Shown in pieces: positions 47,938 through 53,126 of a stretch of 64,000 bases of DNA (within the stretch, counting starts at the first letter, position 1; each line of letters begins with the position of its first letter). The stretch lies in assembly GCA_012719855.1 (NCBI GenBank), contig JAAXZN010000048.1:62001-126000 (forward strand), in the 5' to 3' direction. Made by a program: the position numbers and the translations under genes. This DNA comes from Serratia liquefaciens. GTDB lineage: Bacteria > Pseudomonadota > Gammaproteobacteria > Enterobacterales > Enterobacteriaceae. Below the pieces are notes generated by a model. It was given only the letters and a program-made list of their open reading frames with translations, made no database searches and had not been told where the DNA came from.

Positions 47938-48354
47938 ATGATGACTTTGACATTGCCTCGACTGCTTATTGTCTTTACCGCGCTGCTCCTGAGCGCCTGT
48001 ACCAGTCAAAAAAGTAGCCCGGAACGCCACGCCAAACATGCGGTTTATCAGTTGGCACGTGAAGATTTCTCCCCCGAAATGCGAACCCAAATCCCAGACT
48101 CGATAAAAGCGTCCATTCCGTTCTTCGACCAGTTCTACAAAATGGGGAAAGCCGATCGGGCCAAGGGCCTAACGCAGCAGCAGGCACAGCAGCAGGAAGC
48201 CTATTTCCGCAGCCCAGAATTCCTCAGTGACATGGGGAAGAAAGGACGATTTATCAATCAGCAATATTCAGTGGATAACCCACACAAACAACGCCAGATC
48301 TTGCTGGATTCCGCCGTTGCCACCTACTGGGATGGTTACGAAGGGCGGCCTTGA
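47938..48354 (+). CDS. Small lipoprotein, possibly Exc2 family
   Basis: A 138-residue lipoprotein. The signal peptide LPRLLIVFTALLLSAC ends in a good lipobox (LSAC), with Cys at about 22. The mature part has ERHAKHAVYQLAREDFSPEM and a Gln-rich segment. It resembles the Exc2-type lipoproteins associated with colicin plasmids, but I rate that name as tentative. ATG 47938 follows AAGGAAG. It is the only plus-strand gene of the treB-treR insertion and converges on the bacteriocin cassettes. Confidence 0.75.
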   Translation: MMTLTLPRLLIVFTALLLSACTSQKSSPERHAKHAVYQLAREDFSPEMRTQIPDSIKASIPFFDQFYKMGKADRAKGLTQQQAQQQEAYFRSPEFLSDMGKKGRFINQQYSVDNPHKQRQILLDSAVATYWDGYEGRP

Positions 48355-48444: not shown

Positions 48445-48708
48445 TTAAAGTAGATTGAATTTCTCTAGGGTCGCTTTGACTTCTTTTCTCAATCCAGACT
48501 CATCCAGTTCATAATCAGCGCGATCTGAATCTGGATTATAAATCTCAGCCACCATAAATAGTTCCTCTCCACAGTTCAAAACATTCTTGTCCTGATCAAT
48601 TCCATATAATTTACGTCTTTCAATACATATTTCCTCAGAGAATTTAAGTGCATTAACTTTTGAGTTCAAAAAATCCCTGGCTAATTCAATTATCGCCATT
48701 TTGTTCAT
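48445..48708 (-). CDS. Colicin D-type immunity protein (orphan cassette)
   Basis: An 87-residue protein strongly resembling colicin D immunity protein: it begins [17 protein letters not shown] and has [32 protein letters not shown] and the tail [10 protein letters not shown]. Such proteins block the tRNA-Arg-cleaving domain of colicin D-like toxins. The ATG overlaps the stop of the partial toxin (ATGA). It is about half identical by eye to the immunity protein at 49449, with the C-termini most alike. Confidence 0.88.
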
Positions 48709-49385
48709 CAGTCACCTGTCTCTAAATAAATTAGACCATTATCCGCATCGGGGTTTATTTTCCATCCGGAGAGAAAATCGCCATTGGCTTTGATGATTAC
48801 AACCCTCATATTTTTGGGGTTGAAGTAAACTTTAGATTCCTTTTTCCGTCGATAAGTTCCTTTTTTCACAGTATTTTTGTCCTTCAAGTGTGCTTCAATT
48901 GCGTCGCGATATTGAGTCAACGTTACTCTATTTTTTTTCGTGTCGGCAATACCAAAATCACTAGCATGCTTAAATTTCTTGTCCAATTGTTTACGCGTAA
49001 AACGCCCAGAGTCAAGTGGATCATTGACCATTACATAGAGAGCTTCAACGCCTGTTTCAGTCGCATCCGGCTGCCACAAGATAAAATCCTGCAAGTCCTG
49101 GACGACATCAGCAGGGAAGGTCGTAACAACAATGCTGTCTGCCTGCCTGACATTGGTGCCGGTATGCACCGGCGTCTTGGGGACCGATGAACCATTGCCT
49201 GTGTGTGGCGGTGCCGCAGGGCCAGTCGGTACCGGATTGATCAGTATGGTCTGGGCAGGTATGCCGCCCATTGCTGGCAGCGTGATTTTATCCAGCCCGG
49301 TTGCCTCATCACGAGTTATCTCTTCAGAGCAGAGGGGTAAAAATAGGATAAGTAAGTAGGGTAAAAATATTTTATTAATGAACAA
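48708..49385 (-). pseudogene. Orphan bacteriocin C-terminal cassette without a proper start
   Basis: This frame encodes the S-pyocin-type linker domain and colicin D-like nuclease domain of the full bacteriocin at 49712 but lacks its first about 490 residues. From the shared junction (49313) the two are nearly identical through the KKFKHASDFGIADTKKN motif, then diverge in the last 50 residues. The only upstream start is TTG 49385, inside a terminator hairpin, and the 24 residues it adds are unrelated. It keeps an overlapping immunity gene. It is best read as a silent donor cassette; expression as a toxin is unproven. Confidence 0.75.
48847..49313. repeat. 467-bp direct repeat, copy A
   Basis: Nearly identical to 49854-50320 at a constant offset of 1007 bases, with only scattered substitutions and no indel seen. 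It covers the linker and first part of the nuclease domain of the orphan cassette. Its left edge marks where the bacteriocin's unique N-terminal coding region is missing. Confidence 0.9.
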
Positions 49386-49416
49386 AGCCCAACAAAGTTT
49401 CGTTTGTTGGGCTTTG
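49383..49416. terminator. Strong hairpin between the two toxin-immunity cassettes
   Basis: The 14-bp perfect stem caaagcccaacaaa/tttgttgggctttg with a six-base loop (gtttcg) lies 33 bases after the functional immunity gene. It should end the bacteriocin operon before the orphan cassette. Confidence 0.85.
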
Positions 49417-49448
49417 TTTAATACATAAACATAAGGCCATTCGATAGA

Positions 49449-49715
49449 TTAAAGAAGATTGAATTTCTCCAGGGTCGCTTTGACTTCTTTCTTTAATTCT
49501 GATTCATCCAATTCATAACTGTCACGGTCCGAATCAGGGTTAAAACAATCTGCCAAAATAAACAGATCACCACCACACATATCTATAGATTTATTCGGTT
49601 CTTCTATGCCATATAGCTCACGTCTTGAAGTCACTATTTCTTCTGCGAAAGTTTCGGCGCTGATTTTATTTTCTATAAATTTCTTACCAATTTCTACTAG
49701 TTTAATTCTACTCAT
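49449..49715 (-). CDS. Colicin D-type immunity protein of the bacteriocin operon
   Basis: An 88-residue immunity protein starting MSRIKLVEIGKKFIENK at ATG 49715, which overlaps the bacteriocin stop (ATGA). Motifs RRELYGI, CGGDLFILADC and NPDSDRDSYELDE match the colicin D immunity family. The N-terminal half differs strongly from the orphan immunity protein at 48445, while the tails [12 protein letters not shown] are identical. It should protect the producer against the 49712-51802 toxin. Confidence 0.88.
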   Translation of the reverse strand: MSRIKLVEIGKKFIENKISAETFAEEIVTSRRELYGIEEPNKSIDMCGGDLFILADCFNPDSDRDSYELDESELKKEVKATLEKFNLL

Positions 49716-51802
49716 AACACCCCCGATTCTAAATATATCCTGCCGTTCTCTTCCGTTGGGTCTATTTTCCATGCTGACAAGAAACTCCGATCAGCCTTAA
49801 GAATAACGACATTCATTGATTTCGGATTAAAATACACAGTTGAGCTCGCGTTTCGTCGATATGTTCCTTTTTTCACAGTATCTCTGTCCTTCAAGTGTGC
49901 TTCAATTGCGTCGCGATATTGAGTCAACGTTACGCTATTTTTTTTCGTGTCGGCAATACCAAAGTCACTAGCATGCTTAAATTTCTTGTCCAATTGTTTA
50001 CGCGTAAAACGCCCAGAGTCAAGTGGTTCACTGACCATAACATAGAGAGCTTCAACGCCTGTTTCAGTCGCATCCGGCTGCCACAAGATAAAATCCTGTA
50101 AATCCTGGACGACGTCAGCAGGGAAGGTCGTAACAACAATGCTGTCTGCTTGCCTGACATCCGTGCCGGTATGTACTGGTGATTTGGGTGCCGATGAACC
50201 ATTGCCTGTATGTGACGGTGCCGCAGGGCCTGTCGGTACAGGATTGATCAGTATGGTCTGGGCAGGTATGCCGCCCATTGCCGGCAGCGTGATTTTATCC
50301 AGCCCGGTTGCCTCATCACGGACAGGCCTAAACACCGGCACGCTGGCAGATACCCCACCAACCCCCGTTCTGACAAAGTTTACACTTTGTTTTCCGTCCT
50401 TGTCCGTCGATATAAATCCACGTACCGGCATATCTACCGAAGTCATCCCTGGCCGGATTGCGGTTTCACCGACGGCGGCCAGACTTGCCTGGAAGGCAAA
50501 CATATTGATGTCACGACCGGGAACCTGGTCACTTCCCGTTCCGGCTGCTGCCGGGATGAATCCAACAGCAAGAGCCCCCAGTACCGACCCTGCGGCGACA
50601 GCGGTACCGGCACGTATGCTGCCGACTTCCGTTGCGCCACGCCACAACACCCCCGCTACGGAACCAGCCAGTTCACTGGAGGTTGTCATAACGCCCTGTG
50701 CTGCCGTCGACATCTGCAGCATGGCGGGCGTACGGTTGAGTACCATTGTTCCTGCGGTAGCCAATGCAGTATTGGCTGCGTTCAGCTTTTCGGGCGTGTA
50801 TACCGGTGCGTCCAAAATACCGGCTTTGGCAAACAGCGCCTTCCTCGCCGCTTCAACTTTCCGGGCCTCCTCGGCCTTGCGGGCTTCCTCGGCCTTGCGG
50901 GCTTCCTCGGCCTTGCGGGCTTCTTCGGCCCTGCGGGCTTCTTCGGCCCTGCGGGCTTCTTCGGCCCTGCGGGCTTCTTCGGCCTTGCGGGCTTCTTCGG
51001 CCTTGCGGGCTTCCTCGGTCTTGCGGGCTTCTTCGGCCCTGCGGGCTTCCTCGGCCCTGCGGGCCTCATCCGCGATTTCGCTCAATATTTTCTTATATTG
51101 AAGGTACGCACTTGTGAGAGAGGGCACCTCTACGTTGCTTTTTCTGTAGCCCGTTTTGTCATCGCCCTTGCCGCCACCGTTAATATTGTATTCCGTGGTC
51201 ACCTGGGTCATGACCTTTTCATTATCGAGCCAAAAACCAGGTGGTATCTCGCCCTGTAATACTGCGGAATATGCTCCCAGCGTTACTTTGTTTTCTGCCG
51301 CTGCATCCGCATCATTATTGTTACCATTCGGCGAGCGTTGAAAATTTTCGAGTTTATGCCCCGTTGCGACGGTGCCGAAAACCCACGTATCCACACTGGA
51401 GGATACAGATGTCACTGGCTCGTTCTTTATTGCTGGTTTTACCGAATTAAATGCATCCGTTACAGTATCAACTTGCTCACGACGTATCCCCGAGACCGAG
51501 ATACTTAACACACCGTCTTTATCCAATTTCGTCAGAGATACCTTTGCCAACGAGTTAATATAACCGGATTTTTTTAGCAAATCAGTCAACATGTTTTTGA
51601 TCGCCTGATCATTTCTGATCGCATTCATTTGACGCTGATAGGCGGCCGTGTGGGAATTGCCATTACCGTTGTCGTGATCCCCTGCATTTCCGTGAGAGTT
51701 CCCGCCGGGCGTGGAATTATCCGGCCGTTCATTAAGATTAGCGCCTGTACCACCCATGCTTTCACCTGCGGTGGGGCCATGGCCATTTAGTTCTTGTGGC
51801 AT
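49712..51802 (-). CDS. S-type pyocin/colicin D-like bacteriocin (tRNase type)
   Basis: A 696-residue secreted toxin. Residues 1-50 are Gly/Asn/His-rich and disordered, like colicin N-termini that hold Tol-binding sequences. Residues 51-240 are unassigned. A charged coiled coil of six-residue EEARxA-type repeats fills about 244-315. An Ala/Gly-rich hydrophobic region (about 330-490) leads to an S-pyocin-type domain (about 494-595) with ALYVMVSEPLD. The C-terminal 100 residues look like the colicin D nuclease: KKFKHASDFG, KKGTY and VYFNP. ATG 51802 has AGGAG upstream. It is preceded by the fibre gene and coupled to its immunity gene. The target as tRNA-Arg is inferred. Confidence 0.9.
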   Translation of the reverse strand: MPQELNGHGPTAGESMGGTGANLNERPDNSTPGGNSHGNAGDHDNGNGNSHTAAYQRQMNAIRNDQAIKNMLTDLLKKSGYINSLAKVSLTKLDKDGVLSISVSGIRREQVDTVTDAFNSVKPAIKNEPVTSVSSSVDTWVFGTVATGHKLENFQRSPNGNNNDADAAAENKVTLGAYSAVLQGEIPPGFWLDNEKVMTQVTTEYNINGGGKGDDKTGYRKSNVEVPSLTSAYLQYKKILSEIADEARRAEEARRAEEARKTEEARKAEEARKAEEARRAEEARRAEEARRAEEARKAEEARKAEEARKAEEARKVEAARKALFAKAGILDAPVYTPEKLNAANTALATAGTMVLNRTPAMLQMSTAAQGVMTTSSELAGSVAGVLWRGATEVGSIRAGTAVAAGSVLGALAVGFIPAAAGTGSDQVPGRDINMFAFQASLAAVGETAIRPGMTSVDMPVRGFISTDKDGKQSVNFVRTGVGGVSASVPVFRPVRDEATGLDKITLPAMGGIPAQTILINPVPTGPAAPSHTGNGSSAPKSPVHTGTDVRQADSIVVTTFPADVVQDLQDFILWQPDATETGVEALYVMVSEPLDSGRFTRKQLDKKFKHASDFGIADTKKNSVTLTQYRDAIEAHLKDRDTVKKGTYRRNASSTVYFNPKSMNVVILKADRSFLSAWKIDPTEENGRIYLESGVL
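49854..50320. repeat. 467-bp direct repeat, copy B
   Basis: The functional-bacteriocin copy of the repeat at 48847-49313. Its right end (50320) is the point where the toxin sequence becomes unique toward the N-terminus, and its left end lies in the nuclease domain where the two toxins diverge. Confidence 0.9.
50861..51068. repeat. 18-bp tandem repeat encoding the coiled-coil region
   Basis: About eleven to twelve copies of an 18-bp unit (core gcgggcttcttcggcctt on the plus strand) encode the repeated six-residue EEARKA pattern of the bacteriocin. Units differ at a few positions (cct/ctt, tcc/ttc). Such arrays change copy number by slippage. Confidence 0.9.
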
Positions 51803-51842
51803 GTTATATACTCCTGAATGTCCTTTTACGAGCAATGGGCTA

Positions 51843-52976
51843 TCAGCTGTGTTTACCGGAAATAGCCTTTTCCAGCACCGTCAACCGAGTTTCCAGTGCA
51901 CGTCTGGCCTCACGTTCTTCCTTTAACGCTTCGACCAGAAGGGCGACCACGCCATTGATATTAATTCCACGGGCATCTTTCAAAACGCTGCCGTCATTTA
52001 ATTTCAATTCGGTGGTGGTGACTGATTGAGGTAATACGCTTTCCACTTCCTGGGCTATTACTCCGGCTTCCGGGACGCCCTGTTTCAGGTAGGTATAACC
52101 GCTTATTTTTCCCAGCTTCTCCAGCGCACCGTCAATTTTCTCGATATCGGTTTTCATACGGGCATCGGAGCTGCTGTGCCAGGCACCGTTTGCGTAGGCG
52201 TTGCCGTTATTGCGGAATTCGTACCAGCCGTTCCCGCCTCCATTGCCAACATGAACGCCCATAAAATGATGTTGACCGATTCGTTCATAGTGATAGAGGT
52301 TGGTAAAAAGGTCGCCAGCTCCCTGTAAATGCAGCCCGTTAGTCACCCGCGTTGCATCACTTTCATTCCTGTTACCACCTGCCCAGAACCATCCGTCGGG
52401 ATTGCGCTTGGTCAGTTGTCCCGCTGACAGCTCAGCGTTGGCTCTGACCTGAAGTTCATTCCAGTTTCCCTGCCAGTCGCGGTAAGAAATTAACCCAAAA
52501 TTATCCTTGCCAGCGATAACCCGAGTTCCCATCACCATGGTCGTAGTTACGTTACCGCTCGTGAAATCGCTATGCACAGGCGCAGAATTATAGATTTGTC
52601 CGTTGATAAGAGGTGCTGGACCGCTGGTCACGGCACTGATACCTGCATTGTGCGACACCATTGCGCCACCTGAAATATCAACGCCGTTACTCAGAGACAC
52701 CCTGCCGGTAGAAAGGCTAAAAGCAAAGGGGCGTAATGTATTCCACTGTCCGTCTTGCGCCTGACCGGCCGGTGTGGTCAGAGCATAAAAGGCTTGGCCG
52801 TCATTACGAAAAAGTACGCCGGTATTGCCGTTTGCCAGGCGAAAACCGTTTGCTGCCTTAGTTACAATCTCACCGTCACTGATGATGCGTTTACGCAGTG
52901 TGGTCAGGGATTTCAGCTCTGTCACATCGTCATTAACGCCGTTAGTCACCTGAGCATTTTTCTTTTCTTCAGCCAT
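51843..52976 (-). CDS. Phage tail-fibre-like protein with C-terminal S74 chaperone domain
   Basis: A 377-residue protein (384 from ATG 52997). The middle is a glycine/asparagine-rich fibre-like region. The C-terminal 110 residues form an intramolecular chaperone of the peptidase S74 type: SSSDARMKTDIEKID, GVIAQEVESVLPQSV and a terminal coiled coil EALKEEREARRALETRLTVLEKAI. These domains trimerise fibres and cut themselves off at the conserved serine. The gene ends 40 bases before the bacteriocin start with no terminator between, and a LexA box lies upstream. No other phage gene is nearby. Both start codons have fair ribosome-binding sites. Confidence 0.88.
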   Translation of the reverse strand: MAEEKKNAQVTNGVNDDVTELKSLTTLRKRIISDGEIVTKAANGFRLANGNTGVLFRNDGQAFYALTTPAGQAQDGQWNTLRPFAFSLSTGRVSLSNGVDISGGAMVSHNAGISAVTSGPAPLINGQIYNSAPVHSDFTSGNVTTTMVMGTRVIAGKDNFGLISYRDWQGNWNELQVRANAELSAGQLTKRNPDGWFWAGGNRNESDATRVTNGLHLQGAGDLFTNLYHYERIGQHHFMGVHVGNGGGNGWYEFRNNGNAYANGAWHSSSDARMKTDIEKIDGALEKLGKISGYTYLKQGVPEAGVIAQEVESVLPQSVTTTELKLNDGSVLKDARGININGVVALLVEALKEEREARRALETRLTVLEKAISGKHS

Positions 52977-53106
52977 GATTATCTTCCTTTTCGACATTCT
53001 GTTTCCTGATGGTTAACAGCGTCCGGTATCCTCCGTTGCTCCTGACTGGCAGGTCTGGGGAGGTACACATTCCGTGTGCTGAAAAACCGCTAAAACACAC
53101 AGCGAT

Positions 53107-53126
53107 AACTGTATGTATGAACAGTA
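53107..53126 (-). promoter_or_regulatory. LexA (SOS) box upstream of the fibre-bacteriocin operon
   Basis: The sequence aactgtatgtatgaacagta has the CTG-N10-CAG core with an AT-rich centre expected of LexA sites. It lies about 110-130 bases upstream of the fibre gene. Colicin and S-pyocin operons are typically SOS-induced. No other coding gene lies in the 278-base region between treR and the fibre gene. Confidence 0.75.

Follow-up and report, generated by a model that had tools for sequence, protein, structure and literature searches.

A 64,000-nucleotide (nt) stretch of Serratia liquefaciens DNA (contig JAAXZN010000048.1, positions 62,001–126,000; hereafter, the window) carries on its minus strand a LexA-type box followed by a phage tail-fibre-like gene, a bacteriocin gene, and an immunity gene. 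The locus probably belongs to the family of phage-associated klebicins (klebicin C/D) as a chromosomal member of the SOS type, with the fibre serving as a co-induced accessory adhesin. By gene content and homology, it falls within this family: an activity gene of the Pyocin_S type and then an immunity gene follow the fibre gene directly on the same strand, the fibre is 74% identical to H27/L001, annotated as 'klebicin C phage associated protein', and its homologues on plasmids (H21–H29) show 69–82% identity. The part of accessory adhesin is one that we infer for the fibre.

Conservation of the fibre–toxin pair and of the LexA box

A search for the fibre–bacteriocin pair in other genomes, as suggested by the initial annotation, recovered it in 34 of 37 fibre loci. 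The loci comprised the window, 17 genome-contig loci, 8 further Serratia loci, 2 loci from the family search, and the 9 plasmids (H21–H29), which were picked from 419 matching records for high coverage at 69–82% identity. Two further family-search copies lay on the same contigs as L036 and L042 and were left uncounted. The hosts belonged to Serratia, Klebsiella, Enterobacter, and Erwinia. In the paired loci, a Pyocin_S-type toxin was found downstream of the fibre on the same strand, and Pyocin_S was present in all 33 paired toxins scanned. The exceptions were L047, where the fibre is truncated, and L054 and L055, which have a transposase or insertion sequence nearby. For 30 of the 34 pairs, the gap between fibre and toxin measured −4 to 196 nt; it was 382 to 725 nt in L049, L061, L089, and L002, and in L049 and L002 the gap is long because the toxin frame is split. 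Most of the 37 loci had an intact fibre frame; it was broken or truncated in L047, L053, and L061, and its start was shifted by an insertion in L055.

The box, CTGTTCATACATACAG at 53109–53124, is the sole CTGTN8ACAG in the 64 kb. In the window alone it proves nothing and may be due to chance, since 0.58 such sites were expected and 35 of 100 shuffles had at least one. Conservation makes it convincing and is the sole argument for it: in the 260 nt upstream of the fibre, CTGTN8ACAG was found in 22 of the 37 homologous loci and CTGGN8ACAG (one fixed mismatch) in 11 more (33 of 37 together), and neither form was seen there in L037, L045, L048, and L055. No minus-strand site resembling a sigma-70 promoter was listed at the box by a simple promoter scan, which was counted against the observation. 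With the conserved box and the pairing taken together, the proposal of the initial annotation that fibre, bacteriocin, and immunity genes form an SOS-controlled operon is upheld as a prediction.

There is evidence that the fibre is tied to a single lineage of the toxin mid-domain. Among 30 Serratia genomes, 20 had a fibre match at 1e-3, and 15 of the genomes contained the 17 high-identity loci, among which L061 has a split fibre. When the same genomes were searched with the toxin mid-domain, all 17 loci were recovered; full mid-domains were found at these 17 (61–100% identity) and at 5 sites elsewhere (44–49%), where no fibre was present in the fetched stretches. A mid-domain tree was built from 28 paired rows and 8 without a fibre. 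Of the latter, 7 grouped in a single clade (support 100/100), separate from the paired rows; the eighth, klebicin B, stood on a very long branch. The toxin mid-domain was also found in approximately 590 plasmid records, and the presence of the fibre was checked in only some of these.

Layout of the locus and known relatives

The features, with positions in the window, are as follows.

53109–53124, minus strand: LexA-type operator, CTGTN8ACAG, upstream of the fibre gene
51843–52976, minus strand: tail-fibre-like gene (kdp/kcp-type); Pfam Gp34_trimer and Peptidase_S74, tail-fibre PHROGs
52203–52391, minus strand: variable fibre tip, residues 196–258; lowest mean pairwise identity of the folded region
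51921–52181, minus strand: S74 chaperone region, residues about 266–352; Pfam Peptidase_S74, SSSDARMKT motif
51803–51842, unstranded: 40-nt gap with ribosome-binding site, between fibre stop codon and toxin ATG
49712–51802, minus strand: bacteriocin gene, 696 amino acids; Pfam, PDB sequence matches 5znm, 1v74, 3few, 9hn1
49449–49715, minus strand: colicin D-type immunity gene, 88 amino acids; Pfam Colicin_immun (1.2e-14)
49381–49418, minus strand: 16-bp hairpin 3' of the immunity gene; possible operon end
48445–49385, minus strand: orphan cassette, a truncated toxin with its own immunity gene; Pfam, DNA identity to the main cassette

The coordinates of the initial annotation (51802..53126) cover the box and the fibre only, and the bacteriocin and immunity genes are located at 49449–51802. 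The anatomy that it described was confirmed: the LexA-type box is followed on one strand by the S74 tail-fibre gene, the fibre stop codon is 40 nt from the toxin ATG (51802; AGGAG before the ATG), no terminator-like site was found by the terminator scan in this gap (local fold −5.8 kcal/mol), and the toxin and immunity genes overlap by 4 nt. The hairpin at 49381–49418 is absent from the terminator scan's own listing. The statement that no other phage gene is nearby also agrees with the neighbours identified, a LacI-type regulator, PTS EIIBC, and an Exc2-family lipoprotein, none of which is a phage gene (the 64 kb were not scanned throughout for phage genes). The lipoprotein (47938–48351; NCBIfam, 173.8 bits) lies beside the bacteriocin cassettes, and its name is linked to plasmid entry exclusion.

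The founding paper on phage-associated klebicins is that of Chavan et al. (2005). The initial annotation knew of no described precedent; the klebicin C and D clusters and Serratia marcescens WW4 mean that the arrangement is already known, this genus included. As described in PMC10269471, the klebicin clusters have a phage-associated gene, an activity gene, and an immunity gene in this order. The same source likens the phage-associated proteins to the C-terminal portion of tail fibres and mentions a comparison with receptor-binding domains, so the receptor-binding idea for the fibre is in print as well. Klebicin D is described as phage-associated and of the tRNase type (PMC3120645), and in S. 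marcescens WW4 a phage-associated gene is reported to adjoin klebicin D-like genes (PMC3717176).

The window locus resembles the klebicin D cluster (kdp-kda-kdi, Klebsiella oxytoca) in gene order, the colicin D-type activity gene, and the tRNase class, a likeness drawn from the published description; it differs in being chromosomal and from Serratia, in the colicin S4-like start of its toxin, and in having the orphan toxin/immunity cassette. With the klebicin C cluster (kcp-kca-kci) it shares gene order, a homologous fibre, and the Pyocin_S mid-domain (L048), but klebicin C is an rRNase, whereas the window toxin is of the tRNase type and lacks the N-terminal TolC-binding hairpin of klebicin C. 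The S. marcescens WW4 region (SMWW4_v1c20330-20390) is from the same genus and has a gene like that for the 'klebicin C phage-associated protein' next to a klebicin D-like gene, and it also holds further pyocin/immunity genes; unlike in the window, DNase-type toxins are described there, the likeness being set by the description in PMC3717176. Colicin D of Escherichia coli is homologous to residues 314–695 of the window toxin and has the tRNase domain and immunity family in common with it, but comes with a lysis gene and a different N-terminus, and the plasmid stretch fetched for it shows no fibre gene.

Fibre and toxin modules and their exchange

The fibre open reading frame spans 51843–52997; a conserved ATG at 52976 gives a protein of 377 amino acids, and translation could also begin in frame at the ATG at 52997. 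By its domains (Gp34_trimer, 5.1e-14; Peptidase_S74, 1.3e-13; tail-fibre PHROGs also match) and the conserved SSSDxRMK motif, the protein is an S74 fibre, for which self-cleavage is predicted. The motif residues S269, S270, D271, R273, M274, and K275 were invariant in 17 of 17 fibres, and the cleavage residue would lie within the motif. Of the 32 homologues aligned, 31 were 67–84% identical to the window fibre, and L089 was 48% identical. The identity profile, from an alignment of 32 fibres that excluded L089, gave mean pairwise values of 0.80 for residues 1–125, 0.65 for 126–195, 0.54 for 196–258, and 0.83 for 259–355; the tip, the most variable part of the folded region, sits between the conserved anchor and the conserved chaperone, and the C-terminal tail (361–377) is also variable. 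In L089 (1046–2278), the conserved anchor is kept and the distal part is different, without the S74 motif. Stretches 49–61% identical to fibre residues ~198–278 were observed in other Serratia genomes (L025, L026, L018), within frames of 593–640 amino acids.

The toxin consists of a colicin S4-like start, a region at 60–230, a long coiled coil, a Pyocin_S domain (1.6e-35), and a colicin D tRNase domain (Colicin_D, 3e-13). Residues 314–695 matched 5znm, a colicin D entry, at 9e-116, and the KFKHASDFG-type motif, the histidine of which is presumably catalytic, aligns to colicin D; by domain and motif, the protein is a colicin D-type tRNase bacteriocin with predicted tRNA cleavage. Residues 1–51 are colicin S4-like, GPTAGESMGGTGANLN being identical, and parts of residues 1–230 recur in pore-forming bacteriocins, for which the fetched stretches showed no fibre. 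N-terminal stretches of the window toxin are shared by Serratia bacteriocins in L091 (2200–3549, minus strand), L092 (2749–4098), L093 (1688–3409), and L094 (1862–3604), none with a fibre in the fetched DNA; L093 matches the Pfam colicin pore-forming domain, and the proteins in L091, L092, and L094 are putative bacteriocins. Internal DNA repeats at 50838–51073 code for the EARKAEEARRAEE coiled coil, the length of which may vary between strains. The klebicin G structure 9hn1 is among the PDB sequence matches of the toxin, and no paper on it was found in the literature searched.

When the window was compared with G007, a genome of the same species, most of the flanking and coding DNA was 93–100% identical. 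The main exchanged stretches are the fibre middle and tip (64–83% over 52151–52900) and the region coding for the toxin nuclease and the immunity protein (~48%, far boundary of the patch unplaced); the fibre chaperone region (99.6%) and the toxin entry region are unchanged, and there is a smaller dip (82%) at 51101–51250. The G007 locus (L058, 134–2931) has another nuclease on a 96–97% identical toxin front and several orphan mid-domain fragments behind the toxin. Beyond the hairpin in the window, the orphan cassette consists of a truncated toxin (48708–49385; the end of Pyocin_S and the colicin D domain) and an immunity gene (48445–48708), with 80.7% DNA identity over 880 nt to 49449–50320. 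Further partial mid-domain copies were found downstream in G007, G005, G002, G008, and G014. The orphan and partial cassettes and the nuclease swap in G007 fit exchange of toxin ends by recombination, for which the orphan cassette is a possible reservoir; interchangeable toxic domains in Serratia have already been noted (PMC5536347).

Correlations between modules were calculated for 29 pairs in 21 comparisons, the p values ignoring kinship and multiple testing. The fibre anchor was correlated with the toxin mid-domain (r 0.36, p 0.0005) and the toxin N-terminus with the toxin mid-domain (r 0.63, p 0.0005). Values were lower for fibre anchor and toxin N-terminus (r 0.17, p 0.014), fibre middle and fibre tip (r 0.23, p 0.019), and fibre tip and toxin mid-domain (r 0.09, p 0.18). 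The fibre tip was uncorrelated with the N- or C-terminus of the toxin.

Role of the fibre

The toxins paired with the fibre have entry regions of their own. Ahead of the common mid-domain, 200–436 residues are present in 33 of the 34 paired loci (all but the split L002), and the 29 intact pairs have about 12 types of N-terminal region (at an arbitrary threshold) next to one fibre family. The N-terminus is colicin B-like in L050 (7.6e-74) and klebicin C-like in L048 (7.7e-94, the MVSLG TonB box included), and a colicin A N-terminal domain was found in two paired toxins. In PMC8324772, a KlebC-E9 hybrid purified without any fibre kills Klebsiella and E. coli by way of TolC, which is both receptor and translocator, and TonB; the words 'phage' and 'tail' are absent from the main text of that source. 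A relative is therefore self-sufficient, and toxin activity without the fibre, named by the initial annotation as telling against its proposal, is reported for this relative and not for the window toxin. The fibre is thus presumably not the only receptor-binding part of the toxin. Of the target recognition suggested initially, the version in which the fibre stands in for a receptor-binding part that the toxin lacks finds no support, as the paired toxins keep their own entry regions; the fibre may have an accessory role in target choice, which the variable, exchanged tip favours.

The new two-component bacteriocin of the initial annotation, in which the fibre would bind the toxin and be needed for target recognition, is very unlikely. 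It would agree with the conserved adjacency in 34 of 37 loci, with the tracking of the toxin mid-domain by the fibre anchor and of one mid-domain lineage by fibre presence, and with the receptor-binding role proposed for kcp/kdp (PMC10269471), but the KlebC hybrid is reported to work without the fibre (PMC8324772), the entry regions retained by the paired toxins are of the colicin B, KlebC, or colicin S4 kind, the 12 N-terminal types share one fibre family, and the stretches fetched for colicin D and for five Serratia toxins with a related mid-domain contain no fibre. Somewhat less improbable, though still unlikely, is a fibre without any part in killing, i.e., a phage gene caught with the SOS promoter or put to another use (e.g., blocking phage receptors) and kept by promoter linkage. 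That KlebC needs no fibre, that the tip is uncorrelated with either toxin terminus, and that fibres or toxins are broken in L061, L053, L049, and L002 are in line with such a gene; the mostly intact fibre frames, the conserved chaperone motif, the exchanged tip, and the retention of the fibre in one toxin lineage argue against it. A remnant tailocin or prophage, with the fibre belonging to a particle encoded elsewhere, is hardly credible: tail-fibre families match and 1264 phage records have distant relatives (all below 60% identity), but the fibre is short (377 amino acids), sits next to a toxin in 34 of the 37 loci, some of them on plasmids, and has no phage genes among the identified neighbours.

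For the accessory adhesin, the following course may be proposed. DNA damage would relieve LexA repression, and one transcript would yield the fibre, the toxin, and the immunity protein. The toxin would enter via its own N-terminal region and its colicin D domain would cut tRNA, as is known for the family, while the immunity protein would protect the producer. The fibre would fold as a gp34-like trimer, the S74 chaperone would cut itself off, and the trimer freed of it would add binding specificity, the exchangeable tip adjusting which cells or surface the mixture binds. The fibre still looks used, given the variable tip, the tip exchange, the distal swap in L089, and the link to one mid-domain lineage.

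Several points weigh against this role. Joint tuning of the fibre tip and the toxin N-terminus was rejected (r 0.01, p 0.41), the tip alone had no match at 1e-5 among 50,697 phage records, and the AlphaFold models were poor (mean predicted local distance difference test score 44.7 for the toxin and 41.5 for the fibre) and give no structural support. KlebC was examined as a hybrid, and its N-terminus is not homologous to that of the window toxin. The conserved linkage of fibre and toxin could be plain genetic linkage. No published test of the function of a phage-associated fibre was found in the literature searched, in which coverage of subscription papers was limited.

A more specific proposal, which we regard as doubtful, is that the fibre is an exchangeable aiming subunit acting in trans: the self-processed trimer would bind a surface glycan, be held by the conserved toxin mid-domain, and add specificity at first contact. 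If so, some twelve kinds of entry region would share a single fibre family, each toxin entering by its own N-terminus. The pairing itself was known; new here are the comparison of two genomes of one species, in which the fibre middle and tip and the toxin nuclease are exchanged, and the evidence tying the fibre to one lineage of the toxin mid-domain. Together with the published killing by the fibre-free KlebC hybrid, they make the purpose of the klebicin phage gene a question for simple tests.

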